Source of the DNA: Apostichopus japonicus
Taxonomy: Eukaryota > Echinodermata > Holothuroidea > Aspidochirotida > Stichopodidae
Assembly: GCF_037975245.1 (NCBI RefSeq)
Contig: NC_092567.1
Coordinates: 26,022,376-26,086,375, forward strand
Length of the DNA stretch: 64,000 nt
Reading direction: 5' to 3'
This document shows positions 3,174-64,000 of this stretch, one piece after another. Numbering within the stretch: position 1 is the first letter of the stretch; every line of letters begins with the position of its first letter. The notes beneath the pieces were generated by a model. It saw only the letters and a list, made by a program, of their open reading frames with translations. It had not been told where the DNA came from and did no database searches. A program made the translations under genes and the position numbers.

Positions 3174-13099
<9,926 letters not shown>

Positions 13100-18599: not shown

Positions 18600-19135
18600 C
18601 TCCCCTCACAATGACCAAACAATGTTGAACCCTCTACCGCCGTCGCTGTCCACGACACAATGCTTGAAGCTTTATTCAGCAGGACAACATGCATTGTAAC
18701 ATGTAGTAGGCTCTTTGTTTTGCCGATTTGCTGGTTCCTATGTAACTGACCATGCTTACATTGTGTACTTTTGAAAATGCAATATTTTCTCATTGACCAT
18801 GGGTACAGTCCCAAGTGTATCCAACAGTACAATGTCATATATCTGATCTCTTGTAGAGTTTGCGGCATCCAGTATGTTGGCGAAACCAAAACCACCCTCC
18901 AGAAGCGTTTTTATGGTCACAGATCCACAGTCAGCACCATGAAGACTGAGACCCCAGTTGGAGAACACTTTAACCTTCCCAACCATACAATTAATGACAT
19001 GTCCCTCAGGGGATTGAACCCCTAGGTAGCCGTCCTGACCCACTGAGTACGAATCAGCAGAGAGAGGCTGTGGATGCAATGCCTTCGCTCCGTTCAACCT
19101 CATGGGCTCAACATTCAGGAAGGACATGACTAACT
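18600..19135 (+). mobile_element. Penelope-like element relic: GIY-YIG endonuclease
   Basis: The frame at 18771-19025 contains VIYLISCRVCGIQYVGET, then TLQKRF-GHRS and VGEHFN, with a final NHTINDM block. This is the GIY-YIG domain pattern carried C-terminally by Penelope-like retroelements. After stops, the same frame continues with ERLWMQCLRSVQPHGLN, the usual end of such proteins. Upstream residues (RFAGSYVTDHAY) also fit but are broken. The internal stops and the lack of a reverse transcriptase make it a dead 3' fragment. Confidence 0.7.
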
Positions 19136-43706: not shown

Positions 43707-46700
43707 CTATGCTTGAGGGACATCCCCTGGCTGCTGAACATCTTCCACCACCTGCTGTTGTGCAGGTGGCTGGCCAGCCTGTTGCTGGGCAGCCTGTTGC
43801 TGGGCAGCCTGTTGCTGAGCAGCCTGTTGCTGGGCAGCCTGTTGCTGGGCAGCCTGTTGCTGGGCAGCCTGTTGCTGGGCAGCCTGTTGAGCAGCCTGTT
43901 GAGCAGCCTGTTGCTGGGCAGCCTGTTGCTGAGCAGCCTGTTGCTGGGCAGCCAGTTGCTGGGCAGCCTGTTGCTGGGCAATCTGTTGCTGGGCAGCCTG
44001 TTGCTGGGCAGCTACATCTGCTTGTCTCATTTCAGCCGCTTTCTTGACCTGTGCTGCTTGCTGTACTATTGCATCTTGAGCTTGTAGTAGTTTAGCTTGT
44101 TCAGCAGCTACTTCGGGTTGAACTTCTTGTTTGCCTTGCTGTTGAGCAGCCTGTTGAGCAGCTTGCTGGAGCTGAGCAGCCTGTTGCTGAGCAAGTTCTT
44201 CCTGTTGCCTTTGGGCTGCTTGAAGATCCTCAACCTTATTGATGGAGGCCTGCCAACAAGAAGAGAAAGACATTATTTACCTACGCTGTATGGACAACAG
44301 GTGGCAGAACCATGTGAAGCCTCATCCTTGTTAAAAGCAGACAAAAACAAGTTTAAGACAGGGTTTAATACACCTCTGGGCCCTTTTAAAGAACATATTA
44401 ACAGATAACCAGGACTGTTTAAGGAAAGTGCAAAGAAAGTCTGGGAGAAACAGATTAAATGAACTGCAAACAATTTCATGTTTTCACCATAACATGATCA
44501 AAATGTTCACAAACTTTTGAACTTACGATATTTGGATCAAATTTCATATTTTTCTCATCCATCTTCTTCATGATCTCATCAGCTGCTTCAGCCGCCACTT
44601 GTTTGACTCTCTCCTGCTAAAGAATGAAATATGATAAAAACAAGAATAATAATAGAGGGCACTAAACCTTGTTTGACTCTCTCCTGCTAAAGGATGAAAT
44701 ATGACAAAAACAAGAATTATAATAGAGGGCGCTAAACTTTGTTTGACTCTCTCCTGCTAAAGGATGAAATATGATCAACACAAGAATAATAATAGAGGGC
44801 GCTAAACCTTGTTTGACTCTCTCCTGCTAAGGGATGAAATATGATAAAAACAAGAATAATAATAGAGGGCGCTAAACCTTGACAATAATACACATTATGC
44901 AGTCCTGTGTTCAGGGTTTAATGGTCAAAAAGGACATCACAAGGTCCATATGACCAATTGGATGGAGAAATCCAAATCCATAGCGGGCAGATGTGGGGAT
45001 TCCCCTCCCCACCTTTTTTCTATTTTTGGCAAACCCACAAATTAACAGTAGCAATTTAACACTACTTTCCATTAAGAGAATTCAATTAAGAGCTTAATTT
45101 AAAGTCTAAATAAGCCTAAAAAACACATCATTTTATACCTTACATTACATTTGGGTGGGGGGGGGGTAGGAAACCCAGATCCACTACATGACATCAGGGC
45201 GACACCCACAGATGACAACTTTGCCTTTAACGGAACATGCCCAACATTTCACCGGATTGCGTAGATGAATATCACGAACAATAATGTTATTTACAGGGTG
45301 GAAACAAATAACCTAAACTCCTCATCTTTGACATTAATGGGATTATTAAATCCCTCTACTTATTCTTTGGTAGCTAGATGATACCACCAATGCAAAGGTT
45401 GACACTTAAAATGAAAATGTAAAATAACAACTGCTAGAACTGAAATATTGAACATTCTATAAAGCTAGTTCTTTGTCTCTGTGAATATTTGGAACCTAAA
45501 ATTCTGGAATTTACTCTGACCAACAAAGATTTAATTCTTGAGATTTTCTTGTTCTTCTTCTTTCACAACTAACAGATTGAGTGCTTCTACCCTGGTCAAT
45601 CATAGTTAACATTCAAATAATGTTTTCTTAAAAGTCATTTTTTTTATACTAGCTCTTGGCTTAGTATCTGATATTTATTCAATTTAGAACAAGTTCTTGT
45701 AATTTGATAAAAAGACACAGAAAAATTTAAACTTTATACTTTATGCTTTAAAGATATATTTATTTAGGAAGTGAAGAAATACAGAACAAGAAAAGTATCA
45801 ATTAGGTAACTCTTAAATAAGTAAATATTAGTATCTTATTATCAAATTGAGAATTACTAAATAGGAATAGGGAAGCTGTTGTCTCCACATAACTAGAAAT
45901 ATATATATATATATAATTGAAATCGTAGTGAGTTGGAAAATCCAGAACAGTAAAAAAACTTCCAGCCTCCACCGGGATTCGAACCCAGGCCTCCCGCTTT
46001 ATATGCGGACACCCTAACCACTAGGCTATGGACGCTGATTGTATGTCCAGAGGTTCGAAACCGGTAAGGATGGTCATAATTCCACTGTACAGTAGGTGTT
46101 TGTCACCTGCATCGAACAATACTAGTGTTGGTGACATATTTGCCTTACTCTAGAGATCAAACATAAAGCTAACTGACTCGAAATCATTTGCGATTCCTAA
46201 AGCTGGATATCGAAAGAGATACTTTGAACAGACTTTGTTAATGAAATGGAGGTAAACGACGAAGGTAAATGAATATTCAATTGAATTTGTAGTGAGTTGG
46301 AAATCCAGAACAGTGAAAAAACTTTCAGCCTCCACCGGGATTCAAACCCTGGCCTCCCGCTTTATATGTATAGATGTATATATATATGTATAGATCCTTT
46401 GACAGAAGGTGTAGGGGAGAATTACAGTTTTGTCTAGTAATTACAAAGCTTGTTCAAAATGATGTAATATCACAACCAGAAAGATTGCTAGAGAGATTGC
46501 TAAAGAAACCAGAGAGCAAGTGAAACTTCAAAATTAACAAGTCAAACTTGCGAGTAACTCTGTGAGTTACATCAGATAAACATTAAAACAAAATACTCAA
46601 GAACTTTGCTACAATACTATAGGCTTCAGTCAACAATCACAATACTTCTGTTGAAGTGATTATTAAAGCTAGCATGTAAATACAGCAAGTAGTTACTAGC

Positions 46701-49700
46701 AATTCAAACCACATTGCTGTATTAGGCATAATTCTACAGTGAAAACATTAGTCCTCAAGTTAGCTGATGAATACAGCAAACATCTTTTTGTTATTTCCAC
46801 ACCACATTGTCATATCAGGCTGAATTCTACAAAGAAACCTATCCACACAAATTCACTTAAAAGTGACCTTGGAGTTAGCAACTACAAGCAACGTGTTTTC
46901 ACAAGTACTTTCCTCCGACCACTGCTAAAATGCTTCCCTAAAATACAGCACAGAACATTGCTTCTTTCTATTTAAGTCTTCATAACAAACAAAAAACAAA
47001 CACACATGTTAACCAATTTGAAGTTATGAAGTAATAACGGTAAATCTAGGAGTACTTATATGCTTCAACAACAGCAAAATTTACCACCAAAATAAATCAC
47101 AAAATAGCACCAACTTGTTTTGGTTATGTTGACCTTTACATAACATTGGCAAACTTGAGGTCAGCAGGTAGCATACTTAAGTGAGCTCTGTTGGTCATGC
47201 AGAAGGTATACATTCTGTGTAACTTTTCCATGTAAATGTGTTTTAATACAATTATGCAATTAAAGTTGAGAAATTACAATTATCAAATACTGGTTGAAAA
47301 TTTTCAAATAAATTACCAATAACAACGGTGGGTAGTTAAAATGATATTACAATCAATGTAACAAAATAGATGCTAATTAATACAAAAAATCAGTTCAAAC
47401 TGCATTATAAAACAAAACAAAATTCGTTGCAACAATTATCGCCATTAAAAAGTAATTTGAAACCTTAGAAGATACTAATCATTAATCAAGTAACTAAACA
47501 GGGAAATAGCACCCACCAGGTTTGAGTAGCTCAACCACCCTCCCCCCCCCCTCCCCTCTTCCTCCCATTAAGGATTGAAACATTGGACACATGTCCAGCA
47601 GACAGTGACAGTGTGAAATTATTATTGACACATGCAAACGCTATTATAAGTTTACTATGAATGCAATGCAGGGTAGAGCTATTTTTAGTTTACTATTAAC
47701 ACAAAGCAGGAGTAGAGCTGCTTTCAGTTTATTAGTAACTAAAAGCAGGATAAAGCTTGCAGGATTTTTTCCAGTTCTCCCCTTGACAACCAGGTCTTAG
47801 TTTCTGTTTGTCCGACCAGAAAATTAGTTGTCGCAAAAAGTGTAGCAAAATAGCAAAGAATGACCAATACGTACACTGTAGGAGGGATGTGTATTGTTTG
47901 GTGAATAGAGGACCAATATGTACACTGTAGGAGGGATGTGTATTGTTTGGTGAATAGAGGACCAATACTTACACTGTAGGAGGGATGTGTATTGTTTGGT
48001 GAATAGAGGACCAATACGTACACTGTAGGAGGGATGTGTATTGTTTGGTGAATAGAGGACCAATACATACACTGTAGGAGGGATGTGTATTGTTTGGTGA
48101 ATAGAGGACCAATACCTACACTGTAGGAGCGATGTGTATTGTTTGGTGAATAGAGGACCAATACATACACTGTAGGAGGGATGTGTATTGTTTGGTGAAT
48201 AGAGGACCAATACCTACACTGTAGGAGGGATGTGTATTGTTTGGTGAATAGAGGACCAATACCTACACTGTAGGAGGGATGTGTATTGTTTGGTGAATAG
48301 AGGACCAATACCTACACTGTAGGAGGGATGTGTATTGTTTGGTGAATAGAGGACCAATACCTACACTGTAGGAGGGATGTGTATTGTTTGGTGAATAGAG
48401 GACCAATACCTACACTGTAGGAGGGATGTGTATTGTTTGGTGAATAGAGGACCAATACCTACACTGTAGGAGGGATATGTATTGTTTGGTAAATAGAGGA
48501 CCAATACTTACACTGTAGGAGAGATGTGTATTGTTTGGTGAATAGAGGACCAATACCTACACTGTAGGAGGGATGTGTATTGTTTGGTGAATAGAGGACC
48601 AATACGTACAGTGTAGGAGAGATGTGTATTGTTTGGTGAATAGAGGACCAATACCTACACTGTAGGAGGGATGTGTATTGTTTGGTGAATAGAGGACCAA
48701 TACCTACAATGTAGGAGGGATGTGTATTGTTTGGTGAATAGAGGACCAATACCTACACTGTAGGAGGGATGTGTATTGTTTGGTGAATAGAGGACCAATA
48801 CTTACACTGTAGGAGGGATGTGTATTGTTTGGTGAATAGAGGACCAATACCTACACTGTAGGAGGGATGTGTATTGTTTGGTGAATAGAGGACCAATACC
48901 TACACTGTAGGAGGGATGTGTATTGTTTGGTAAATAGAGGACCAATACCTACACTGTAGGAGAGATGTGTATTGTTTGGTAAATAGAGGACCAATACCTA
49001 CACTGTAGGAGGGGTGTGTATTGTTTGGTGAATAGAGGACCAATACGTACAGTGTAGGAGAGATGTGTATTGTTTGGTGAATAGAGGACCAATACCTACA
49101 CTGTAGGAGGGATGTGTATTGTTTGGTGAATAGAGGACCAATATGTACACTGTAGGAGGGATGTGTATTGTATGGTGAATAGAGGACCAATATGTACACT
49201 GTAGGAGGGATGTGTATTGTTTGGTGAATAGAGGACCAATATGTACACTGTAGGAGGGATGTGTATTGTTTGGTGAATAGAGGACCAATATGTACACTGT
49301 AGGAGGGATGTGTATTGTTTGGTGAATAGAGGACCAATATGTACACTGTAGGAGGGATGTGTATTGTATGGTGAATAGAGGACCAATATGTACACTGTAG
49401 GAGGGATGTGTATTGTATGGTGAATAGAGGACCAATATGTACACTGTAGGAGGGATGTGTATTGTTTGGTGAATAGAGGACCAATATGTACACTGTAGGA
49501 GGGATGTGTATTGTTTGGTGAATAGAGGACCAATACCTACACTGTAGGAGGGATGTGTATTGTTTGGTGAATAGAGGACCAATACTTACACTGTAGGAGG
49601 GAAATGTATTGTTTGGTGAATAGAGGACCAATATGTACACTGTAGGAGGGATGTGTATTGTTTGGTGAATAGAGGACCAATACCTACACTGTAGGAGGGA

Positions 49701-52700
49701 TGTGTATTGTTTGGTGAATAGAGGACCAATACATACACTGTAGGAGGGATGTGTATTGTTTGGTGAATAGAGGACCAATACCTACACTGTAGGAGGGATG
49801 TGTATTGTTTGGTGAATAGAGGACCAATACATACACTGTTGGAGGGATGTGTATTGTTTGGTGAATAGAGGACCAATACCTACACTGTAGGAGGGATGTG
49901 TATTGCTTGGTGAATAGAGGACCAATACATACACTGTAGGAGGGATGTGTATTGTTTGGTGAATAGAGGACCAATACCTACACTGTAGGAGGGATGTGTA
50001 TTGTTTGGTGAATAGAGGACCAATACATACACTGTTGGAGGGATGTGTATTGTTTGGTGAATAGAGGACCAATACCTACACTGTAGGAGGGATGTGTATT
50101 GTTTGGTGAATAGAGGACCAATACTTACACTGTAGGAGGGATGTGCATTGTTTGGTGAATAGAGGACCAATACGTACACTGTAGGAGGGATGTGTATTGT
50201 TTGGTGAATAGAGGACCAATACGTACACTGTAGGAGGGATGTGTATTGTTTGGTGAATAGAGGACCAATACCTACACTGTAGGAGGGATGTGCATTGTTT
50301 GGTGAATAGAGGACCAATACGTACACTGTAGGAGGGATGTGTATTGTTTGGTGAATAGAGGACCAATACCTACACTGTAGGAGGGATGTGTATTGTTTGG
50401 TGAATAGAGGACCAATACTTACACTGTAGGAGGGATGTGTATTGCTTGGTGAATAGAGGACCAATATGTACACTGTAGGAGGGATGTGTATTGTTTGGTG
50501 AATAGAGGACCAATACTTACACTGTAGGAGGGATGTGTATTGCTTGGTGAATAGAGGACCAATACATACACTGTAGGAGGGATGTGTATTGTTTGGTGAA
50601 TAGAGGACCAATACCTACACTGTAGGAGGGATGTGTATTGTTTGGTGAATAGAGGACCAATACCTACACTGTAGGAGGGATGTGTATTGTTTGGTGAATA
50701 GAGGACCAATACCTACACTGTAGGAGGGATGTGTATTGTTTGGTGAATAGAGGACCAATACTTACACTGTAGGAGGGATGTGTATTGCTTGGTGAATAGA
50801 GGACCAATACATACACTGTAGGAGGGATGTGTATTGTTTGGTGAATAGAGGACCAATACCTACACTGTAGGAGGAATGTGCATTGTTTGGTGAATAGAGG
50901 ACCAATACGTACACTGTAGGAGGGATGTGTATTGTTTGGTGAATAGAGGACCAATACGTACACTGTAGGAGGGATGTGTATTGTTTGGTGAATAGAGGAC
51001 CAATACTTACACTGTAGGAGGGATGTGTATTGCTTGGTGAATAGAGGACCAATACATACACTGTAGGAGGGATGTGTATTGCTTGGTGAATAGAGGACCA
51101 ATACATACACTGTAGGAGGGATGTGTATTGTTTGGTGAATAGAGGACCAATACCTACACTGTAGGAGGGATGTGTATTGTTTGGTGAATAGAGGACCAAT
51201 ACATACACTGTAGGAGGGATGTGTATTGTTTGGTGAATAGAGGACCAATATGTACACTGTAGGAGGGATGTGTATTGTTTGGTGAATAGAGGACCAATAC
51301 ATACACTGTTGGAGGGATGTGTATTGTTTGGTGAATAGAGGACCAATACCTACACTGTAGGAGGGATGTGTATTGCTTGGTGAATAGAGGACCAATATGT
51401 ACACTGTTGGAGGGATGTGTATTGTTTGGTGAATAGAGGACCAATACCTACACTGTAGGAGGGATGTGTATTGTTTGGTGAATAGAGGACCAATACTTAC
51501 ACTGTAGGAGGGATGTGCATTGTTTGGTGAATAGAGGACCAATATGTACACTGTAGGAGGGATGTGTATTGTTTGGTGAATAGAGGACCAATACATACAC
51601 TGTAGGAGGGATGTGTATTGTTTGGTGAATAGAGGACCAATATGTACACTGTAGGAGGGATGTGTATTGTTTGGTGAATAGAGGACCAATACGTACACTG
51701 TAGGAGGGATGTGTATTGTTTGGTGAATAGAGGACCAATACCTACACTGTAGGAGGGATGTGCATTGTTTGGTGAATAGAGGACCAATACCTACACTGTA
51801 GGAGGGATGTGTATTGTTTGGTGAATAGAGGACCAATACCTACACTGTAGGAGGGATGTGTATTGTTTGGTGAATAGAGGACCAATACGTACACTGTAGG
51901 AGGGATGTGTATTGTTTGGTGAATAGAGGACCAATACCTACACTGTAGGAGGGATGTGTATTGTTTGGTGAACAGAGGACCAATATGTACACTGTAGGAG
52001 GGATGTGTATTGTTTGGTGAATAGAGGACCAATACATACACTGTAGGAGGGATGTGCATTGTTTGGTGAATAGAGGACCAATATGTACACTGTAGGAGGG
52101 ATGTGTATTGTTTGGTGAATAGAGGACCAATACCTACACTGTAGGAGGGATGTGTATTGTTTGGTGAATAGAGGACCAATACTTACACTGTAGGAGGGAT
52201 GTGTATTGTTTGGTGAATAGAGGACCAATACCTACACTGTAGGAGGGATGTGTATTGTTTGGTGAATAGAGGACCAATATGTACACTGTAGGAGGGATGT
52301 GTATTGTTTGGTGAATAGAGGACCAATACCTACACTGTAGGAGGGATGTGTATTGTTTGGTGAATAGAGGACCAATATGTACACTGTAGGAGGGATGTGT
52401 ATTGTTTGGTGAATAGAGGACCAATATGTACACTGTAGGAGGGATATGTATTGTTTGGTGAATAGAGGACCAATACCTACACTGTAGGAGGGATGTGTAT
52501 TGTTTGGTGAATAGAGGACCAATATGTACACTGTAGGAGGGATGTGTATTGTTTGGTGAATAGAGGACCAATATGTACACTGTAGGAGGGATGTGTATTG
52601 TTTGGTGAATAGAGGACCAATACCTACACTGTAGGAGGGATGTGTATTGTTTGGTGAATAGAGGACCAATACCTACACTGTAGGAGGGATGTGTATTGTT

Positions 52701-55700
52701 TGGTGAATAGAGGACCAATACCTACACTGTAGGAGGGAAATGTATTGTTTGGTGAATAGAGGACCAATATGTACACTGTAGGAGGGATATGTATTGTTTG
52801 GTGAATAGAGGACCAATACCTACACTGTAGGAGGGATGTGTATTGTTTGGTGAATAGAGGACCAATACCTACACTGTAGGAGGGATGTGTATTGCTTGGT
52901 GAATAGAGGACCAATACCTACACTGTAGGAGGGATGTGTATTGTTTGGTGAATAGAGGACCAATACGTACAGTGTAGGAGGGATGTGTATTGTTTGGTGA
53001 ATAGAGGACCAATACCTACACTGTAGGAGGGATATGTATTGCTTGGTGAATAGAGGACCAATACCTACACTGTAGGAGGGATATGTATTGCTTGGTGAAT
53101 AGAGGACCATCTTAGGGACGGTGAAACTGCCTCCAGGGTCGATCATATTCCTACCAGTGATAACAAATAGTTTACTACTGTACCCTTTTTATTTATAAAT
53201 TCTCAATGTAATGGAATATGATATAAACAACGAGCCATCTGTCAGAAGACCTCCAAAGCTAATTCTGGTAATCCCAACAGAAAGTTGATCATCTTGGACG
53301 ACAATTACAAAATTTGCCCTGTAATGTTAACTGTACACAAGAAATCACTAAACACAGTCATTTTACATAGTATTCATCATCTGGATATCGACAAATCAAG
53401 CCATTCGTGTACATCTTTTCTGTTTAAAATAAAATGTATTATTTTGTACATAAACAGGTTGACAACAAATGGAGAGAAGACGAAAAATAAAAATATAACT
53501 TAAAAAAACCAAAGAACTAAAACACAAGATGTGACTAGAGTTTGTAAGCAGTGCAGCCAGAGGAGGTGAAAGGTATGACACAAAGCATTGGTTGAGAAGA
53601 TTAGTACAGAATGGTTAGATGAAGTCGAAGTATGCTTGAGACAAGTCTGTTATTATACAGTAGCAGTTCTCTGTGGTCTTCGATCATGGATCTATGCCAC
53701 GTTGTCCTGAAAATTAGGAGAAATTGAAGCAAGTGTTAGGCTAATGTTAGTACCATTGGCGAAGGTGACAGTGAGCAGGGTTCTAATACACTATCAAGTG
53801 ACTAAATCAACATATCTCTCAAATAAAATTTGTTCATTTCTCATACATATATTTTATATGCATCTACCAGAACAAAACTTTCCTATTATTGTGAACAATT
53901 CAAGAGGAAATTGCCCAAATACGTTGTAGAAGTCAGCCATTACCCATTCAATGATAGATACTACCCACAGACCAGTTCCGTTCTTATATTTTATTTTATG
54001 GATTCTCGATTTGCACTATTTTTTTCCATATCTTGACGGATATATCATTATTCGGTTCAATTTTCTGATATTGTTTTGAAATAGTTGCTAACTTTAATAA
54101 TGTACCTTGAATCAAACTCAGTGACCTCAGAAATGCCATGTAAATTATCTTGATGGTGTTATTTGACTCTGAAGCGTTGAAAACAGTTAGGTATCAATTC
54201 AAAATTAGGATGCTGAGAGGGCTGCAGCCATCGTACAGCCAGGCTGTGTAGGGGGCTGCAGCCATCCTGTAGCCAGGCTGTGTAGGGGGCTGCAGCCATC
54301 CTGTAGCCAGGCTGTGTAGGGGGCTGCAGCCATCCTGTAGCCAAGTTGCGTAGTGCTCTGCAGTTTTATACAATAGACACTGCAGGTCTGTAGAGGTGAT
54401 GCCTATTGTTTGATATTGATTCATCCTAGCTGAGCAGGATCTTGCAGCTGCTGCAGCTCTTCTGTTTGGCACGGTGCGTAAGTGATCTCGGTTAGTTATG
54501 TAATGCAATGTAAAGTATTTAATGACTATTTGAGGATAATTATGTTAATTTATCTAGAATATGTTAATTGGTTATAAGGACACCTCACAATACCAACAGT
54601 TAGTAACCATGAAGATTTGTTAATTTAATAGGTGTTATTGAAAGAGCATGTCTGACAAACCAGTATTTTCTAGATGATATTACTTTAGTAGGACATTAAA
54701 ACCAACGTTTATCCATTATGAATATACACAAGTAGTCTAAGGCTGTTTTGTTTTGGGGTTGGGGTGAGGATTGGTGGGATGAAGTGGGGTGGGGTGGGGA
54801 TGGGGTGTGGTGGAGTTAGGATAACAGGATGTGAGGAAGCAAGGTGGGCAGGAGACATTACATTACCAACACTGTCATCTGCTTTCAGATTGAGACAAAA
54901 CAACAACAGAAATCATTTAAAGCAAACAAATAAAACAAATAGGACAACATATTCAAAGTGAGAGAAAGATAGAGAAAGCATCTGACAACAAATGATCCAT
55001 CTACTAGTCTTTAGAAGTTACATCTTCCATTTTCCCATAAAAGATGTTTTGCTGAACTGAATGATGAAATGCTGTCCATTAGGGATGAAAGCATGAGATG
55101 GTTGTAGTGACCTTAAATACCTGATTCCCAATTCAAAAGTGTAAGATGAGGGCCTAAGTTACAGTCTGCTCATTTACGTGATAGATTACAAAACTTCACG
55201 ACTGGATTCCACATTAACTGTGTCAAGAAACATTTATGATTCACATAAACTATATCAAGAAACATTAATGATCCACATTAACTATTGCAAGAAACATGAA
55301 TCATCTTAAAGACAAAACTTAAAGAGTGTCATTTCAGTGATGAGTGAACAAAACACTTTACTGGCATAATAGAGTGGCAAACTCAACATGTGGACCACAA
55401 CAGTCATTTAAGGAGGCATAGAAACATGCAGTTTGCAGAGAAAGTACCCACTCGGCTGGGAGGGCCGGGAAGGGGATGAAAGGGGGATGAGAGGCACTCA
55501 AGCTAGAGGAAGTGCAGAGAAATGTCCTTGCTGTGATTTATTTGCAGAAATTTATTTTTATGAGGCAGATTTATCGGAGGCAGAATGGTAGAGGGTAAAG
55601 ACAGCTTTGAGAGGGTGGTGGCGTGATGGCTTGGAACAATTACTGTAAGGTGTAGAAAAAGCCCAAACCATCCAGATCAGATTTTAGCCTAGGCCAGAGG

Positions 55701-58700
55701 TCACTGATATGCTGTTAGTCTTGGTAGTAACATTTGCACAACATGTTGCAGAAATACTTTTGTGAAATAATTTTGTTACTAATAATCAAGTTCTTAGACA
55801 AAATTTTCCAGAGCAGTTTAAAATGGATACCGAGACCCAAGAGTCAAATTTAACACTGCCAGAGAGTAACTATCACCTGAAAAGACAACATTCCTATTTG
55901 AACTCTTTCACAGAATTAAGTACTTACATACTAAAGATAACACTACATCCTGGAAATGAGATTTTAAGATCGCATGCTCAACAGATTCTTTTTAGTCACT
56001 GTTCTCGTACATCATGTCTAGGACTTTGTGTTCCAAGCATTTTCAGAAGAAAGTAAAGGTTAAAATGATTTAACTATCTTTACAAGGAAAAGTCACTCTG
56101 GACAGAACCTAATTCCCTAATATCCAGTCTGATCTCTATAATAAACTTACAGTAGGATTGTGCTCATGTGATCAACCCTTACACTGTGTGAAAGAAAACA
56201 CAATAAAACTATCATCTGAAAAGAATCTTTCAATTCCCAAACGTTACCATGGAGATGAGATCCTGACGAACAAAGACCTCACATTAACCTGATCCCATTC
56301 TCCTGACATCAGGTCTAGGACTTAGTGTTCAGAGCATTTCAGTGGAGAGCAAACAGTTCAACACAAACTTTCAGCCATCTTTTCAAGTACAGTCACCATG
56401 GAGACAAACCTAAGTTCTGATGCTGGTCTCAATCCTCTTACATCAGGACTGTGGTCATGTGACTGCACCACCTGATGCAGTATGCATTTAGGAGCTCGAA
56501 GTGAGAATGAGTAGGATTAAAATGATAAATTAACAGGGCTTACCTGGTTCATGACAATAGGTTCACCAGCTCCCTGTTCTTTTCTTCTTTGCAAGTAATC
56601 TTCGTGTTCTTTCTGTAGCTTCTCCTTCTTTTCTTTTACAATTTCATCGTACATCACCCTATATTCTTCCAACTCTTCCTCCGTGAAGACATCTTTTTGT
56701 TGTAAATCCTACAGAATGAACAAAATATCAACCCTGTTTTAAGGAACATCAACAGCAATTCACAATTTTAAGACATTTTTCAAATTTCAGGAAAGAATTC
56801 TCCGTCATTGAAAATACCTCACTGTGAGGGCAATTGAGGAACAATCTATGATATAGGAGGATCTTCTTCAAAGGCAAGCTAAAAACGAAAATAGATGAAG
56901 GACATGTAAAAAACAAACACATGGACAGACAACTTCATTAAGCCAGAGTGGTTTGCCCATAATCTGTTGTGGCTTCAGTTTGCTTTTGAATAAAAATGAT
57001 ACCAAGATCAAAACATCTACACATGTATCAAGTCATCTAACTTATACATTAATCTACACATCATGTCATCTAACTTATACATTCATCTACACATCAAGCC
57101 ATCTAACTTATACATTAATCTACACATCATGTCATCTAACTTATACATTAATCTACACATCAAGTCATCTAACTTATACATTCATCTACACATCAAGGGT
57201 CATCTAACTTATACATTAATCTACACATCAAGCCATCTAACTTATACATTCATCTACACATCAAGCCATCTAACTTATACATTAATCTACACATCATGTC
57301 ATCTAACTTATACATTAATCTACACATCAAGTCATCTAACTTATACATTCATCTACACATCAAGGGTCATCTAACTTATACATTAATCTACACATCATGT
57401 CATCTAACTTATACATTCATCTACACATCAAGCCATCTAACTTATACATTAATCTACACATCATGTCATCTAACTTATACATTAATCTACACATCAAGCC
57501 ATCTAACTTATACATTCATCTACACATCAAGGGTCATCTAACTTATACATTAATCTACACATCAAGCCATCTAACTTATACATTAATCTACACATCAAGG
57601 GTCATCTAACTTATACATTAATCTGCACATCATGTCATCTAACTTATACATTAATCTACACATCAAGCCATCTAACTTATACATTAATCTACACATCAAG
57701 GGTCATCTAACTTATACATTCATCTACACATCAAGGGTCATCTAACTTATACATTAATCTACACATCAAGCCATCTAACTTATACATTAATCTACACATC
57801 AAGGGTCATCTAACTTATACATTAATCTGCACATCAAGCCATCTAACTTATACATTAATCTACACATCAAGCCATCTAACTTATACATTAATCTACACAT
57901 CAAGGGTCATCTAACTTATACATTAATCTACACATCAAGGGTCATCTAACTTATACATTAATCTACACATCAAGTCATCTAACTTATACATTCATCTACA
58001 CATCAAGGGTCATCTAACTTATACATTAATCTACACATCAAGCCATCTAACTTATACATTAATCTACACATCAAGGGTCATCTAACTTAAACATTAATCT
58101 ACACATCATGTCATCTAACTTATACATTCATCTACACATCATGTCATCTAACTTATACATTCATCTACACATCATGTCATCTAACTTATACATTCATCTA
58201 CACATCATGTCATCTAACTTATACATTAATCTACACATCAAGTCATCTAACTTATACAGTAATCCACACATCAAGCCATCTAACTTATACATTAATCCAC
58301 ACATCAAGTCATCTAACTTATACATTCATCTACACATCAAGCCATCTAACTTATACATTCATCTACACATCAAGCCATCTAACTTATACATTAATCTACA
58401 CATCAAGCCATCTAACTTATACATTAATCTACACATCAAGTCATCTAACTTATACATTCATCTACACATCAAGCCATCTAACTTATACATTCATCTACAC
58501 ATCAAGTCATCTAACTTATACATTAATCTACACATCAAGCCATCTAACTTATACATTCATCTACACATCAAGCCATCTAACTTATACATTCATCTACACA
58601 TCAAGCCATATATACATTAATATACACATCAAGCCATCTAACTTATACATTCATCTACACATCAAGCCATCTAACTTATACATTCATCTACACAGGCTTT

Positions 58701-61700
58701 TGGCAGTAGTTGAGCAGTGTTGTTACTGTGTTTTTTTTTTTCTCTCTTAGGTGAAAGGTATGTCAAAGTTTCTAGAAAAGATTGCCTTGACAACGATGCA
58801 GTCATCTTACCTCCCAGCCTTCATCCTTTTCAAAAGACTCCTTTTTTGTGGCTGTCAAGAATTCTTCTAAGGTCACTAGTTTGTTGTTATCTGTATCAAT
58901 CTGTAATAACCGCAAACAATGAAAACTTGATTTACGAGAGGTGTAAGATTGATGAAATACTTCCTATGTGGGAACATGAACTGTGCTGATATCAGGTTTC
59001 ATGATCCGAATTAGTTTCATGAACCAAGGATATAAGAAAAGGGGTGTGGTGAGCACCCCTTTCACGGACCCAAGGATAAGAAAAGAGATGTGGTGGGACC
59101 CCTCTTCATGGACCCAAGGATATAAGAAAAGGGGTGTCGAAAGACCCTATTTCATGGACCCAAGGATATCAGAATGGGATGTGTTGAGGAGGAAAGCTCA
59201 CATCATAAACATTTTAGGAATACAATTTGTGGTTTCCTAAGGCTTCCTGACAAACTGAATGCTATACTGTCTCTGAGAGGGGGAGTAGAGAAAGGGGGGT
59301 GGTGGGAGGAGGGATGGACTTTGCAGCAACATACAATTTTTTGAGTAGCATAATGTCAAATGCAATGAATTTCAACAGAACAGACATCAAAAGTCAAGAT
59401 AATATCTTCTTCAACTAATTCATAATTCAAATGGAATCTCTTTGTTACTACATTACCATCGGTGCCTACATATGAAATATGTTTGGTGCCCAATGTGATG
59501 TCTTTCATACTGAACACATTATGATATCACTACATACAATACGATACCTTTAGTACTGTATATGAAATGATACCCTTGGTGCCATATGTGATATGATATA
59601 TCTGATAATTTATGTGATGTCATCTCTTTTGCAGTCTATATTTGAAGCTATATAGAGTTTCTCTACCAATGCATGTAAACCTCGAAGCAAAGTTAGCATC
59701 CCGTCACAACCACTAAGAAAGGTTAACTTGAAGGGTTCATCACAGTTTGCAAACTAGGCATGAGAGATTGGCTTGTTAGTAAAAGATGGTTCTTATGCCA
59801 TTCGGCTTCCCTTGAGAAGCATGCAGGGGTAGTAAGATTCAACTGATCTTAGAAGAAGTTGATTTACATCACATTCTATCCTTAAAGGGATATTTCGGTG
59901 GCTGAATTTGATTGCTCAATAAAAATGCTGGAAATGTTCTGTATCTTTAGGTTGAAAGCACATAATTGTGTTGGCGAATAATTTTTCAAATTTGGTGGTA
60001 TTTTGTGAATGCATCTGGCAAATGAGTGAATGATGTCAATCTTTTTGTTTTTCTCTATCTTTAATATTGAAACTATATTCATTCATACTTAGTAAAGATT
60101 CCTAAATCCTATTGGTCCATTCAGGTCAGCTGACCGTGGTTAATCCTGTGAGTAATGCACGGTAAAATTACGGGGCATCACTTTAACAAATCTTTGGTTA
60201 TATGTAACCAAAAATGTTTTGTTTTATGATTTTTCCCCCACACAAATGGTATTGTATGAATGAACGGGGTTAATCAACGGTCTAGCGTGCGTTACTCACA
60301 TGATTAATGCACTCCGGGTGTTAATGCTATCGCTGGATGCACTCGGTCTCCGCCCTCGTGCATCGCTTGCATTATCCCCCGATCGTGCGTTGATTAACCC
60401 CTTATTCTATATATTTACCTACACAGGCATTTTATAGAAGTCAGTTTCTTTATGTTTAACTGTTTTATTTTTCGGCTCTCTCTCTTTGAAATGAAGATAC
60501 TAGTTTCCCATCTTTACCTCTTTCATGACATGTTCCCTCATACGATAAATTTCTTCAAATTTTTCTTTGGGGTCTGCATCAGTATCTTTATAAATCTCCT
60601 CCACCTGAATGAAGAAAATGCAACAACTGAAGAAGAAGAGCCTGGCTTGGACGGTTATAGAAATGAGGAATAAAGAGAGTACTGTAGCACGAAATGATGC
60701 AGAGTAGGGTTATCCTAAAGCAACATCAATTATGTTATTTTGTCCTTTTCTTGTCTTGTTTTTGCATGACAAAAGTTGCATTTCTTTTAAAGGTCATTTT
60801 TTGAGAAGATGGAAATCGAATAAACCTTGTAATTTCTTGTCATTTGGCCAAGAAAAAAATTAAATTTGTAAAGGAAATGGAAAATGGGCTGTAAACAACA
60901 AATTAAAGAATTTCCAAATCATCGCAAACCTTTAAGACCATGTTCACATTCTGCTCTATAAATTTCATGTATAATAAATTTCAGTCAAGAAATTTGAATA
61001 AATAAATTTGAATAAATTTCAGTTTCTAATGAGGAATTACACGAAATGCACAGAGACAGAAGTGCCCAAGTCGGGCGAAATGGTCAATTTATTGCCTCAA
61101 ATAGTTGAGTTTCTTGTCAAGACGACTTACTGGATGTAAGTGTAATTTGCACAAATTGAAATGTTGCTTGTTAGGAATTAGTAACACCTTCACCCTTGGC
61201 TACCAGTGATGCTGCTGATGACACTTCAATTCTCCCTACCTCTTTTTGGAGATTCTCCCTACCTCTTTTTGGACATGCTCCCTCATTCGAGCCACCTCTT
61301 CCATGATTTCTCGTTGATCTCTGTTGGTGTCTTTGAATATTCTACTGACCTAAAAACACATTCCTTGTCAATCAGTAGACGTGTGTAAACATCATCGAAA
61401 CCTCTCAAATTTACTCTTGTAAGCAACTAGTCACATGTTACTTCTCAAGCAACATTACCATTATGCACATCTCAGAACACCTACATTGTGTTTTTTCACT
61501 CAAAGTAATTTGATCCGTTCATCTACAGAAGTCTCCTTACCTCTATCAAGAACATCTCAATTGTCAACTAAATCGGCCTGGCCACAAACATCACTTCAGG
61601 TTCTTACATAGACCTATAATGTCTATGCAACATATCTTACTGTACATATGTTGTATGCTTAAACATTAGATATATTGAAATACACATTGTAAAGCATCAG

Positions 61701-63606
61701 GCTTCTCCATCAGACCCCCCCCCCCCCTCCCCCAGCACATCTGATATGTGACTAATGCAATGATACAACCTAACAGTATATTATGAGTTTCCACAAGTGT
61801 AGGACAAGAAATTTACATTGTGAATGCTATCCAACAAGAGGTTCATTAAAGTGAAATAAAGCCCTCAAATAATTGTCTACAGCAGAATGAAAATGTTTAG
61901 TATCGATAAGTATCCAAATAAACACTGTATACCCTAGCTTCTCAACCTTGGTTCCAGCCTACAGTATTTTTAAAATGAGCCATTCCATGAGACAAGTCTT
62001 TTTCAACATGTGAATCCAATTCTAGAAAGTACTTGTAAACATTTCTAAACAGAATTTATTGACAAACTAAGGCTCAAGTTAAACCGTGTAATTACAAAAT
62101 TAATATCAAACTAAATTATTTATGTCGCTGTTGCTAATGGCTGCTACATTCTATGAATATCCAAGACAACTTCTACCTCGACCTTAAAAACAAAAAAATT
62201 TGCCTTTCGATCTATCATATCCTATAATTTAAGCCTTGCAATAAGTCTTATCATTTCTAAAATAAATTGATTGAGAGACCAAGGTGACTTACCTCTTTGA
62301 TAAATAGAGCTTCTAATTCAAAAGAATCTAGTGAACCATCACCGTTTGTGTCGTGGAGCATAAAGAATGTCTTAGGGTTAAAGGTATCTTTCTCTAAATG
62401 GTCGGTCTTCTCCCAAACATCTTCAAGTTGAGCTTTGCTTCCCTGGGAAAAATAACATTGAAGAAGAATAATAGCTTCCCTGGGAATTAAACATATGGAG
62501 TCGATCGCAAAACTGCTTTGCAGTGTGGGCAAATTGCTATACAAGTTCAAAGATGCATTATAACAGTTTTTGTACTCAGAATCATAGTAATGTATAAGGA
62601 CAAAGTTCTGATCTTTCAACACTGCTACAAAATTAAACACTACATTTTCCCTGTATTTTTTTCTTTTCTAATGTCGCTTTGTGCGTAAGTGGGGCTTTCT
62701 ATAATTCACATATGAAAACAACTAGGCCAAATGTCAGAATAATGAAACATACTGTTTCATCCAGGGGAACCCTTAAAAACATCACATATTATAAAGCACA
62801 TAAAGAGGAATAATAATAATCTGTTAACTTTAAACTGTTTTAAACAAGTATGACAAATTTCATGTCAGCTTCTCAAAGTCTGAATTTTCTAAAAATGTTT
62901 TTTTGTAAACTGCTACAATTCATGCTTTCTAGCTGGGTCTCAACGCATCTTTGCAAGAATACTTGCCGATTGAAAAGGTTCTATAAATTATCACTTGACA
63001 GCAAATCCTTTTTCCTACAAGCTATCGACCTTAAAGGGTGTGAAGACTTGCCCAAAAAGAAACGTCTAATGCCTGTAATCTGACCTAGTTTCGAATGAGG
63101 TGTAACAGAAGTGTAAGACACCACCATCGATCCCAGAAAATACACACACAGCTTGCTACCATCAATAATTAGACACTAGTGTACAATCAGTACATACAGC
63201 TACGGTCAATACCAACAGCACAGTGTATAAACCATACAGCGATGGACATCTCAGGTGCAGCTAAAGATAACAAGGTATCACGTTTCATTACTGTCTGCAT
63301 TTTGTAGCGACACGAACAAAACATTACTTGCAAGCAACGGAAAGTTAACGTTTTCAGATAACCGCACGCGGTTTGGGGCGAGTCTTCAATGCCTTTAAAG
63401 ATTCATTCCTTCAAACTCACTGGATGTTTCATCTCTTTGTGGTTGTTCTTCGCTTTCTTCGCTTCCTCCCAATTTTTCACCGCTTCTGCTCGAGCCTTTT
63501 CGTCCAGCTTGTTCATCTGTTGGCGACGCCTAAGTTCTTTCTCCATCTCATATTTTTTGAAATCTGTTTTTCTTCTTTTGTCTGCTTCTTCTAAGTCAGA
63601 GGTTGC
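43707..63606 (-). CDS. NUCB1/NUCB2: Nucleobindin (calnuc/nesfatin family), 3' part, 7-8 visible coding exons
   Basis: Exons in transcript order are 63606-63421, 62442-62293, then 61349-61263 and/or 60604-60518 (homologous 87-bp exons), 58900-58811, 56708-56544, 44616-44527 and 44249-43707 (stop). All are phase 0. With one of the two 87-bp exons this gives 436 residues; the N-terminus lies beyond the window. Seen are a Lys/Arg/Glu-rich helix ([17 protein letters not shown]), the family signature HPGSK, EF-hand 1 loop [20 protein letters not shown]-hand 2 loop [21 protein letters not shown], a coiled coil, and a C-terminal tail of AAQQQ repeats. VTLEEFL matches the Galpha-binding motif described for calnuc. 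Nucleobindins are secretory-pathway and cytosolic Ca2+-binding proteins, Golgi-enriched, that bind Galpha and DNA. One gene before the vertebrate NUCB1/NUCB2 split is expected. A giant minisatellite fills the 12-kb intron before the penultimate exon. Confidence 0.93.
43757..44010 (-). repeat. 15-bp coding repeat encoding AAQQQ in the nucleobindin C-terminus
   Basis: About 16 copies of ctgttgctgggcagc (plus strand) with three shortened units. On the minus strand it encodes repeated AAQQQ, then [20 protein letters not shown] at the end. A Gln-rich C-terminus is normal for NUCB1. The length is likely polymorphic. Open frames on the other strand (Leu- or Val-rich) are shadows. Confidence 0.92.
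44600..44882 (-). repeat. 70-bp tandem repeat derived from a nucleobindin exon edge
   Basis: Four units of exactly 70 bp. Each contains the minus-strand acceptor CTTTAG and the first codons (CAGGAGAGAGTCAAACAA) of the exon at 44527-44616. Only the unit nearest the exon continues into the real coding sequence. The others are decoy acceptors at 44686, 44756 and 44826. Confidence 0.88.
44883..45914. other. Intron stretch of nucleobindin, nothing recognised
   Basis: AT-rich intron sequence with a G run near 45154. No exon-like segment is seen. Confidence 0.4.
45915..46036 (-). mobile_element. tRNA-derived SINE with an intact tRNA-like head
   Basis: On the minus strand, 46036-45964 is exactly 73 nt and folds as a tRNA. 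The acceptor arm is AGCGTCC/GGAGGCT, the anticodon arm TCCGC/GCGGG with loop ATATAAA (anticodon ATA), and the T arm CTGGG/CCCGG with loop TTCGAAT. The D arm is imperfect. A and B boxes (TAGTGGTTAGGG, GGTTCGAATCC) are present. It runs directly into a tail of about 50 bases (ttttttactgttctggatt, then ccaactcactac) that is repeated in the second copy at 46285-46365. That makes it a SINE rather than a working tRNA gene. Confidence 0.72.
46285..46366 (-). mobile_element. 5'-truncated copy of the same tRNA-derived SINE
   Basis: It has the same tail and the 3' half of the tRNA-like head, with CAAA in place of CGAA in the T loop. The copy stops abruptly at the anticodon stem where a TATATG microsatellite begins. 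Confidence 0.7.
46400..47861. other. Intron stretch of nucleobindin, nothing recognised
   Basis: AT-rich intron DNA with a CT-rich run near 47540-47565. Small open frames lack any support. Confidence 0.4.
47862..53110. repeat. Giant 49-bp minisatellite in a nucleobindin intron, about 107 copies
   Basis: The unit begins ggaccaata, has two variable bases, then tacactgtaggagggatgt, and ends gtattgtttggtgaataga. The copies are nearly uniform, and the array is uninterrupted for 5.25 kb. Within the unit, CCTAC-ACT-GTAGG is a small hairpin. In some blocks two-unit (98-bp) alternation is visible, for example 49680-50075. Because 49 is not a multiple of three, minus-strand frames cycle and remain open for up to 390 codons; these are not proteins. 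Confidence 0.98.
53111..54200. other. Intron stretch of nucleobindin, nothing recognised
   Basis: Single-copy-looking intron sequence after the minisatellite. No exon with family similarity is seen. Confidence 0.4.
54215..54348. repeat. 35-bp tandem repeat, about 4 copies
   Basis: The unit contains ggctgcagccatcctgtag and ccaggctgtgtaggg. It lies in the same nucleobindin intron. Confidence 0.9.
54349..56543. other. Intron stretch of nucleobindin, nothing recognised
   Basis: It contains a G-rich tract near 54755-54840 (gggtggggtgggga) and short atgattcacattaact repeats near 55230-55300. No coding exon is supported. Confidence 0.4.
56855..56935 (-). mobile_element. Possible degraded Penelope-like terminal fragment
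   Basis: aggatcttcttcaaaggc followed by a diverged version of the arm sequence seen at 28955-29020 (ending catggacagac versus catgcacagaatacagac). It is short and has no defined ends. Confidence 0.4.
57010..58698. repeat. 33/34-bp minisatellite in a nucleobindin intron, about 50 copies
   Basis: The unit contains taacttatacattaatctac and acatcaagccatc. Two length classes coexist: 33 bp (agccatc, agtcatc, tgtcatc) and 34 bp (agggtcatc). A second variable position is atta/attc before atctacac. The array ends about 110 bases before the donor of the exon at 58811-58900. Confidence 0.97.
59015..59172. repeat. About 50-bp tandem repeat, 3-4 copies
   Basis: Units contain catggacccaaggatata and agaaaaggggtgt. 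It lies in a nucleobindin intron. Confidence 0.85.
59885..60110 (+). repeat. Dispersed repeat, related to 27740-28020
   Basis: It shares the order tttttcaaatttggtggta, then gaatgcatctggcaaatgag, with the inverted copy in GTF2H1 intron 1. Confidence 0.5.
60265..60401. mobile_element. Small MITE with 14-bp perfect TIRs
   Basis: GGGGTTAATCAACG at the left and CGTTGATTAACCCC at the right enclose about 109 bases rich in CpG and TGCA words (gtgcgttactcac, ctcgtgcatcgcttgca). It is a CpG-rich island in an AT-rich intron. No target-site duplication was found. Confidence 0.65.
60518..60604 (-). CDS. NUCB1/NUCB2: Nucleobindin alternative exon, distal copy
   Basis: 29 codons, [20 protein letters not shown] then RMREHVMKE. 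Phase 0, with acceptor CAG and donor GTAAAG. It is closer to the vertebrate sequence at its end (RMREHVM) than the other copy. It encodes the linker between the two EF-hands. Confidence 0.85.
61263..61349 (-). CDS. NUCB1/NUCB2: Nucleobindin alternative exon, proximal copy
   Basis: 29 codons, [20 protein letters not shown] then RMREHVQKE. Same length, phase and position in the protein as the exon at 60518-60604, about half identical. The donor (GAG|GTAGGG) is duplicated 23 bases downstream by a small tandem duplication. Confidence 0.85.
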
Positions 63607-64000
63607 CTAAAGAAGTTGTTGCAAAGGATGTGTTTTAATGGGTTTGGTTTTCTATTTTATGATTTTTTTAACATAATATAAGTTATTAATCAAATACAAT
63701 ATGAATTCAATCTGAATAGGAATTTTAATTTAAGAAAACTTTCAATCTCTGGTTAAAATTCTTGTCAGTAATTATGAAGATATACGTTATGGTTTGGCTC
63801 TCCATTTAGAAGAATAATGATTATCACAATGCATTTTTGAAGGCACTGAAACAAACAAATGCACTATAGCAACTTAACCTTAACAAAATTAATTTTTGTT
63901 TATCAAAATGGCACTGGTTTCATTTTCATATCACTAGAAACATTCTCTGCATTACTATTCAAATATTTCTTCACCCTTTTAGCATTTACATTTTAATAGG

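Follow-up and report, generated by a model that had tools for sequence, protein, structure and literature searches.

A tandem-duplicated exon between the EF-hands of an Apostichopus japonicus nucleobindin gene, probably used as two alternative cassettes

The nucleobindin gene and its paired exons

The stretch of Apostichopus japonicus DNA analysed here (64,000 nucleotides; hereafter the window) carries part of a nucleobindin gene on its minus strand, with the 5' end of the gene lying beyond window position 64000. Six exons were delimited around a duplicated pair, all on the minus strand and given here in the order of transcription: an upstream exon, E-1 (63606-63421; 186 nt; its start was read by eye from the sequence), that ends in KHP; the exon directly upstream of the pair, E0 (62442-62293; 150 nt), which contains EF-hand 1 and ends in ALFIKE; the pair itself, exon A (61349-61263) and exon B (60604-60518), each of 87 nt or 29 codons; the exon directly downstream of the pair, E3 (58900-58811; 90 nt), with the EF-hand 2 loop and a G-alpha-binding-like segment; and the next one, E4 (56708-56544; 165 nt), ending in VMNQ. 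Exon A lies between the acceptor ...tgtgtttttag and the donor gtaggg, exon B between ...tcttcattcag and gtaaag. The identification as nucleobindin comes from human nucleobindin-1 (PDB 1snl), which is the best solved relative of both single-exon isoforms (E = 2.5e-30 for E0-B-E3 and 7.8e-30 for E0-A-E3) and is followed only at E = 3.5e-5 (B isoform) and 2e-5 (A isoform) by the next-best one. In either isoform two stretches match the Pfam EF-hand_1 model, and an 11-residue nucleobindin segment is present in the second EF-hand.

The two calcium-binding loops, of 12 residues each, were placed by translation and by the Pfam EF-hand_1 matches at 62352-62317 (EF-hand 1) and 58897-58862 (EF-hand 2), both on the minus strand, and are the same whichever exon is chosen. 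The VTLEEFL segment (58876-58856, minus strand), named as the G-alpha-binding motif in the original prediction, is identical to that of human nucleobindin-1. That prediction had described A and B as homologous 87-nt exons in the linker between the EF-hands, and their coordinates, lengths, bounding AG and GT dinucleotides, reading frames and 0-0 phase are all as it described them. The common phase itself, although correct, is weak evidence: the four delimited neighbours are likewise 0-0, so that equality between A and B says little. The position between the EF-hands also stands, but the pair encodes more than a linker, as it carries helix parts of both EF-hands. Going by general EF-hand geometry, we take each exon to comprise the end of the exiting helix of EF-hand 1, the linker and most of the incoming helix of EF-hand 2.

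Several further features were seen in the window. About 50 copies of a 33-bp repeat (57027-58694) occupy the intron after EF-hand 2, and a 49-bp repeat, with about 107 copies that are 96% alike, extends over 47862-53109. An open frame rich in Gln and Ala on the minus strand (43707-44276) is possibly a C-terminal exon of the nucleobindin gene. A tRNA-Tyr-like gene with the unusual anticodon ATA lies at 45963-46036 (ARAGORN; Rfam tRNA 55.3 bits). Another open frame (18750-19025) matches the GIY-YIG nuclease model of Pfam at 24.9 bits against a cut-off of 22.6, and is perhaps the remnant of a retroelement. The U2 spliceosomal RNA model is matched at 11115-11213 with 50.1 bits (cut-off 46); the match covers 99 bases as opposed to the 192 positions of the model and is probably a shortened copy.

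Exons A and B align without gaps over their full length, agreeing at 52 of 87 bases and 17 of 29 residues, the common KDT and RMREHV motifs among them, and each on its own makes an in-frame junction to the same upstream and downstream neighbours. In tblastn searches of the window with either exon as query the other one was recovered at E = 1.6e-8, and no convincing third copy was found by these searches, the next-best matches having E = 0.17 (query A) and 1.2 (query B). The 35 differences fall unevenly over codon positions 1, 2 and 3 (9, 9 and 17), and by a Nei-Gojobori-type count 13.8 of 15 synonymous sites differ as against 21.2 of 72 non-synonymous ones. When 35 differences were placed at random on A or on B, none of 20000 trials retained 17 identical residues (mean about 9 unchanged, maximum 16), and 87% of the products starting from A and 61.5% of those starting from B contained a stop codon. 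Possible splice-site demands on the bases of the end codons do not account for this: upon exclusion of these codons 15 of 27 residues are identical, and among 20000 random products each, none starting from A and one starting from B attained that value. With 17 of the 29 residues kept and synonymous sites saturated, the similarity goes well past what neutral drift would leave, and both copies have therefore been under constraint as protein-coding sequence ever since they arose. The flanking introns do not align beyond short words; the best match in the flanks (31 nt, 84%) consists of the exon end plus about three donor bases. Judged from these comparisons, A and B are an old tandem exon duplication, of which both copies have been retained as coding sequence, and homology, equal length, in-frame fit and coding constraint on the two copies are all supported.

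The age of the duplication may be approached through the human protein. Exon B shares 15 of its 29 residues with the corresponding human segment and exon A 13 of 29, next to the 17 of 29 shared between A and B, and the shared parts on either side are identical to human at 29 of 46 and 12 of 23 positions. The duplication thus appears old and might go back almost to the divergence from the vertebrate lineage, for which 29 residues offer a hint only. As the divergence between A and B nearly equals their divergence from human, the pair may even be very old and have been lost in the vertebrate line. The statement that vertebrate nucleobindins have a single such segment holds for human nucleobindin-1, the one vertebrate protein checked.

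Use of one exon, both or neither

All whole-exon combinations, i.e. A, B, both or neither, keep the reading frame, as the original prediction had noted for double inclusion. The match to human nucleobindin-1 distinguishes between them: it is unbroken with B alone (108.2 bits) or A alone (106.6 bits), splits into two pieces at 101.1 bits when both exons are included, and is again in two pieces, at 74.6 bits, when both are omitted. Furthermore, of nine residues in the helix before EF-hand 2 of the human protein, A retains seven and B eight. The retention in A suggests that this exon, too, can directly adjoin EF-hand 2, given that an A always placed before B would leave its helix free to change. 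The pair also shows the features used in a search of the Drosophila X chromosome, being neighbouring internal exons of similar length and the same phase, with matching splice sites and sequence similarity; that search predicted 65 internal exons, of which 26 were already annotated as mutually exclusive, and exons with these features that were annotated otherwise numbered 90 of 16180, in 6 of 1705 genes (PMC3228551). Surveys in human counsel more care: mutually exclusive use is absent from many exons that resemble a neighbour (PMC5740500), and true events of this kind are rare (PMC9741552). On balance, we regard one-at-a-time use of A and B as likely, with a moderate degree of confidence. An old tandem duplication of a single nucleobindin exon would thus have given rise to two alternative 29-codon cassettes, normally one per transcript, each of which would complete the same EF-hand pair, with B as the probable ancestral-like default.

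The best-surviving alternative, which we nevertheless hold to be unlikely, is that most transcripts contain both exons and that the stretch joining the two EF-hands is doubled in the protein. Such a product would be in frame, and the splice sites do not speak against it. In exon A the acceptor is poor (8 of 18 pyrimidines) and the donor fair (score 9.25); in exon B the acceptor is good (14 of 18) and the donor poor (6.59). The donor scores derive from a frequency table and are reliable in their ranking alone. The stronger sites are accordingly the A donor and the B acceptor; A-to-B splicing is therefore not disfavoured on site strength, which counts against exclusion, and either exon may need help in splicing, given that each has one poor site. 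Nor was an enforcing mechanism established. A frame shift upon double inclusion is absent (87 + 87 nt), steric hindrance from a donor-branch point distance below 50 nt is at odds with the 658-nt length of the A-B intron, and a U2/U12 incompatibility is not seen among the six donors (E-1, E0, A, B, E3 and E4), which by eye are all U2-like GT sites. Against double inclusion stand the broken and lower human match, the helix leading into EF-hand 2 that A has kept although it would be without contact to EF-hand 2, and the want of a convincing third copy or repeat series of the exon in the window. For one-at-a-time use, what remains is regulation by splicing factors; exclusion would come about through regulated splicing and not through frame, steric block or U2/U12 mismatch.

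RNA structure is among the other mechanisms to which 484 human clusters were left in one survey (PMC5740500), and pairings were sought here between the introns before A (I1), between A and B (I2) and after B (I3). The best values are -37.7 for I1-I2, -36.1 for I2-I3 and -49.7 for I1-I3, each below all of 10 shuffles. A run of G residues at 61727-61715 underlies the I1 partner in both pairings that involve I1, and among 2419 unrelated window stretches 39 (I1-I2) and 9 (I1-I3) pair equally well with it; the I2-I3 pairing is free of this run and 3 of 2419 stretches elsewhere are as good. A single middle-intron segment (61032-61081) can pair either with 61712-61761, looping out A, or with 60337-60386, looping out B. 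The joint value of this dual pairing (-36.1) is attained by 0 of 40 shuffles, and masking of the G-run reduces it to -28.6, a level attained by at least 6 of 40 shuffles. In addition, an imperfect stem is predicted to enclose exon A on the minus strand, its arms at 61486-61445 (upstream) and 61171-61133 (downstream) lying 92 and 96 nt from the exon; its value of -34.0 is matched by 1 of 2419 stretches elsewhere and reached anywhere by 2 of 40 shuffles, and the local fold has a z of -1.88, with 4 of 100 shuffles equally good. Hairpins at the acceptors have z values of -1.74 (A) and -1.21 (B), as compared to 1.01, -0.42, -1.14 and 0.27 for four other exons. The three introns contain one TGCATG (59825) and no TGTGTGT. 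We treat the predicted RNA pairing as a lead and not as evidence, a matter that one genome cannot decide.

The end of exon A and its donor are overlain by a 23-bp tandem repeat of 2.4 copies (61283-61229, minus strand), with exact 22-mers at 61273-61252 and 61250-61229. It creates a second, identical donor after 61240, 23 nt beyond the first and with the same score of 9.25. Use of this donor would add the 23 nt at 61262-61240 (minus strand) and extend exon A to 110 nt, throwing what follows out of frame and onto early stop codons, whether or not exon B is present; some of the transcripts with A may thus be unproductive. A further explanation builds on these two identical donors: exon A would act as a control of output, with second-donor splicing shifting the frame and marking the transcript for decay, and B would make the protein. 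We give it a slim chance, as A's own frame has been constrained over all 29 codons since the duplication, and the extra donor has a recent look owing to the identity of the repeat copies. The repeat event looks to be recent, or else an allele or an assembly error.

That A and B are independent cassettes, with none, one or both per transcript, would accord with the open frame of all four combinations, but the form with neither exon would bring the EF-hand loops much nearer to each other and has the lowest, two-piece human match described above; we accord this little probability. Least probable of all is that exon A is a duplicate in the course of loss, as might be read from its poor pyrimidine tract, its disturbed donor and its slightly fewer matches to the human segment, since its frame is open, its AG and GT are intact, its residues are retained well above neutral expectation and any loss would have to be recent.

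Predicted effect of the exon choice on the protein

The original prediction that the EF-hand loops are left untouched is correct in that both loops and VTLEEFL lie in the shared exons E0 and E3, but it overlooks the incoming helix of EF-hand 2, most of which is replaced by the swap between A and B. The segment has a net charge of 0 in A and -4 in B. Codon 27 of either exon specifies position -4 before the EF-hand 2 loop: this is Met in B (60526-60524, minus strand), as in human, and Gln in A (61271-61269, minus strand). A hydrophobic residue at loop position -4 is listed among the features of EF-hands (PMC9177970). Isolated EF-hand 2 scores 22.4 bits against Pfam EF-hand_1 with the B helix and 18.7 bits with the A helix, and the single change at -4 in the B helix likewise yields 18.7 bits, a small drop that concerns a profile score and no measured affinity; as human EF-hand 2 itself scores just 17.0 with the same model, the score gives a weak indication of binding. 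A third calcium site was considered within the exons, since each contains D-T-[D/N]-x-D plus a Glu at loop position 12, and was rejected as Pfam detects no EF-hand in either.

In Calnuc/NUCB2, binding of calcium by the EF-hands is reported to bury the overlapping G-alpha-binding motif (PMC10943482). Taken together with the lower score of EF-hand 2 in the A form, this leads to the proposal that the A form may require more calcium before the motif is switched off. A would supply a less acidic segment and a Gln in place of Met at the core position -4 of the EF-hand 2 helix, the latter altering how much calcium EF-hand 2 needs in order to shield VTLEEFL from G-alpha, and the exon swap would thereby tune calcium control of the G-alpha-binding segment. 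A joint reading that combines the above elements is offered tentatively and with considerable doubt: the splice choice might set the calcium threshold for a G-protein regulator that works independently of receptors, with intron pairing possibly looping out one exon. Under it, B would give a tightly packed EF-hand 2 that keeps the G-alpha-binding segment hidden during ordinary calcium signals, whereas A would weaken EF-hand 2 such that this segment stays available at higher calcium, and part of the A-B intron may pair with either outer intron, I1 or I3, looping out one of the two exons.

Comparison with known systems and significance

The closest counterpart by domain is human nucleobindin-1 (Calnuc, PDB 1snl), whose alignment with either single-exon isoform spans query residues 5-102 of 109; it differs in having one 31-residue segment where two 29-residue alternatives are present here. 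A precedent for exon substitution in an EF-hand region is presented by the alpha-actinins ACTN1 and ACTN4, where a tandem-duplicated exon pair swaps part of the region and alters calcium behaviour (PMC9741552; PMC9177970). In those proteins the calcium-binding residues themselves differ and only one form binds calcium, whereas in the sea cucumber gene the loops are shared and only the helix and linker are swapped; the function proposed here is read from sequence. Exons 4a and 4b of OGDH are similarly mutually exclusive, one of them with a calcium-responsive element, but they belong to a different protein, and exclusion in genes of that sort is ascribed to short introns with distant branch points (PMC9177970), unlike the 658-nt intron of the present pair.

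Splicing variation in nucleobindin transcripts has a parallel in mouse NUCB2, for which one skipped-exon event between two brain regions is reported; this event differs in being exon skipping, and the excerpted text makes no mention of a duplicated exon (PMC9031102). A silkworm table contains a nucleobindin-2-like 'isoform X1', the difference of which is unstated in that excerpt (PMC5700172), and nucleobindin-type precursors are reported from brittle stars and oyster, with no mention of alternative exons in the extracts concerned (PMC5627052; PMC8398477). Within the open-licence literature on nucleobindin we recognised no report of a duplicated or mutually exclusive exon pair. A pattern search covered prokaryote contigs (94 matches, 0 confirmed) and viral contigs (17 matches, 0 confirmed), with animals outside its scope. 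The pair is a new case of tandem-duplicated exon substitution, which is itself a known gene arrangement.

A review calls the role of Calnuc/NUCB2 in the regulation of cellular G-protein signalling undefined (PMC10943482). If A and B are used one at a time, nucleobindin would join the genes with swapped tandem exons, and the pair would constitute a natural experiment on how the helix preceding the EF-hand 2 loop controls calcium binding and the access of G-alpha.
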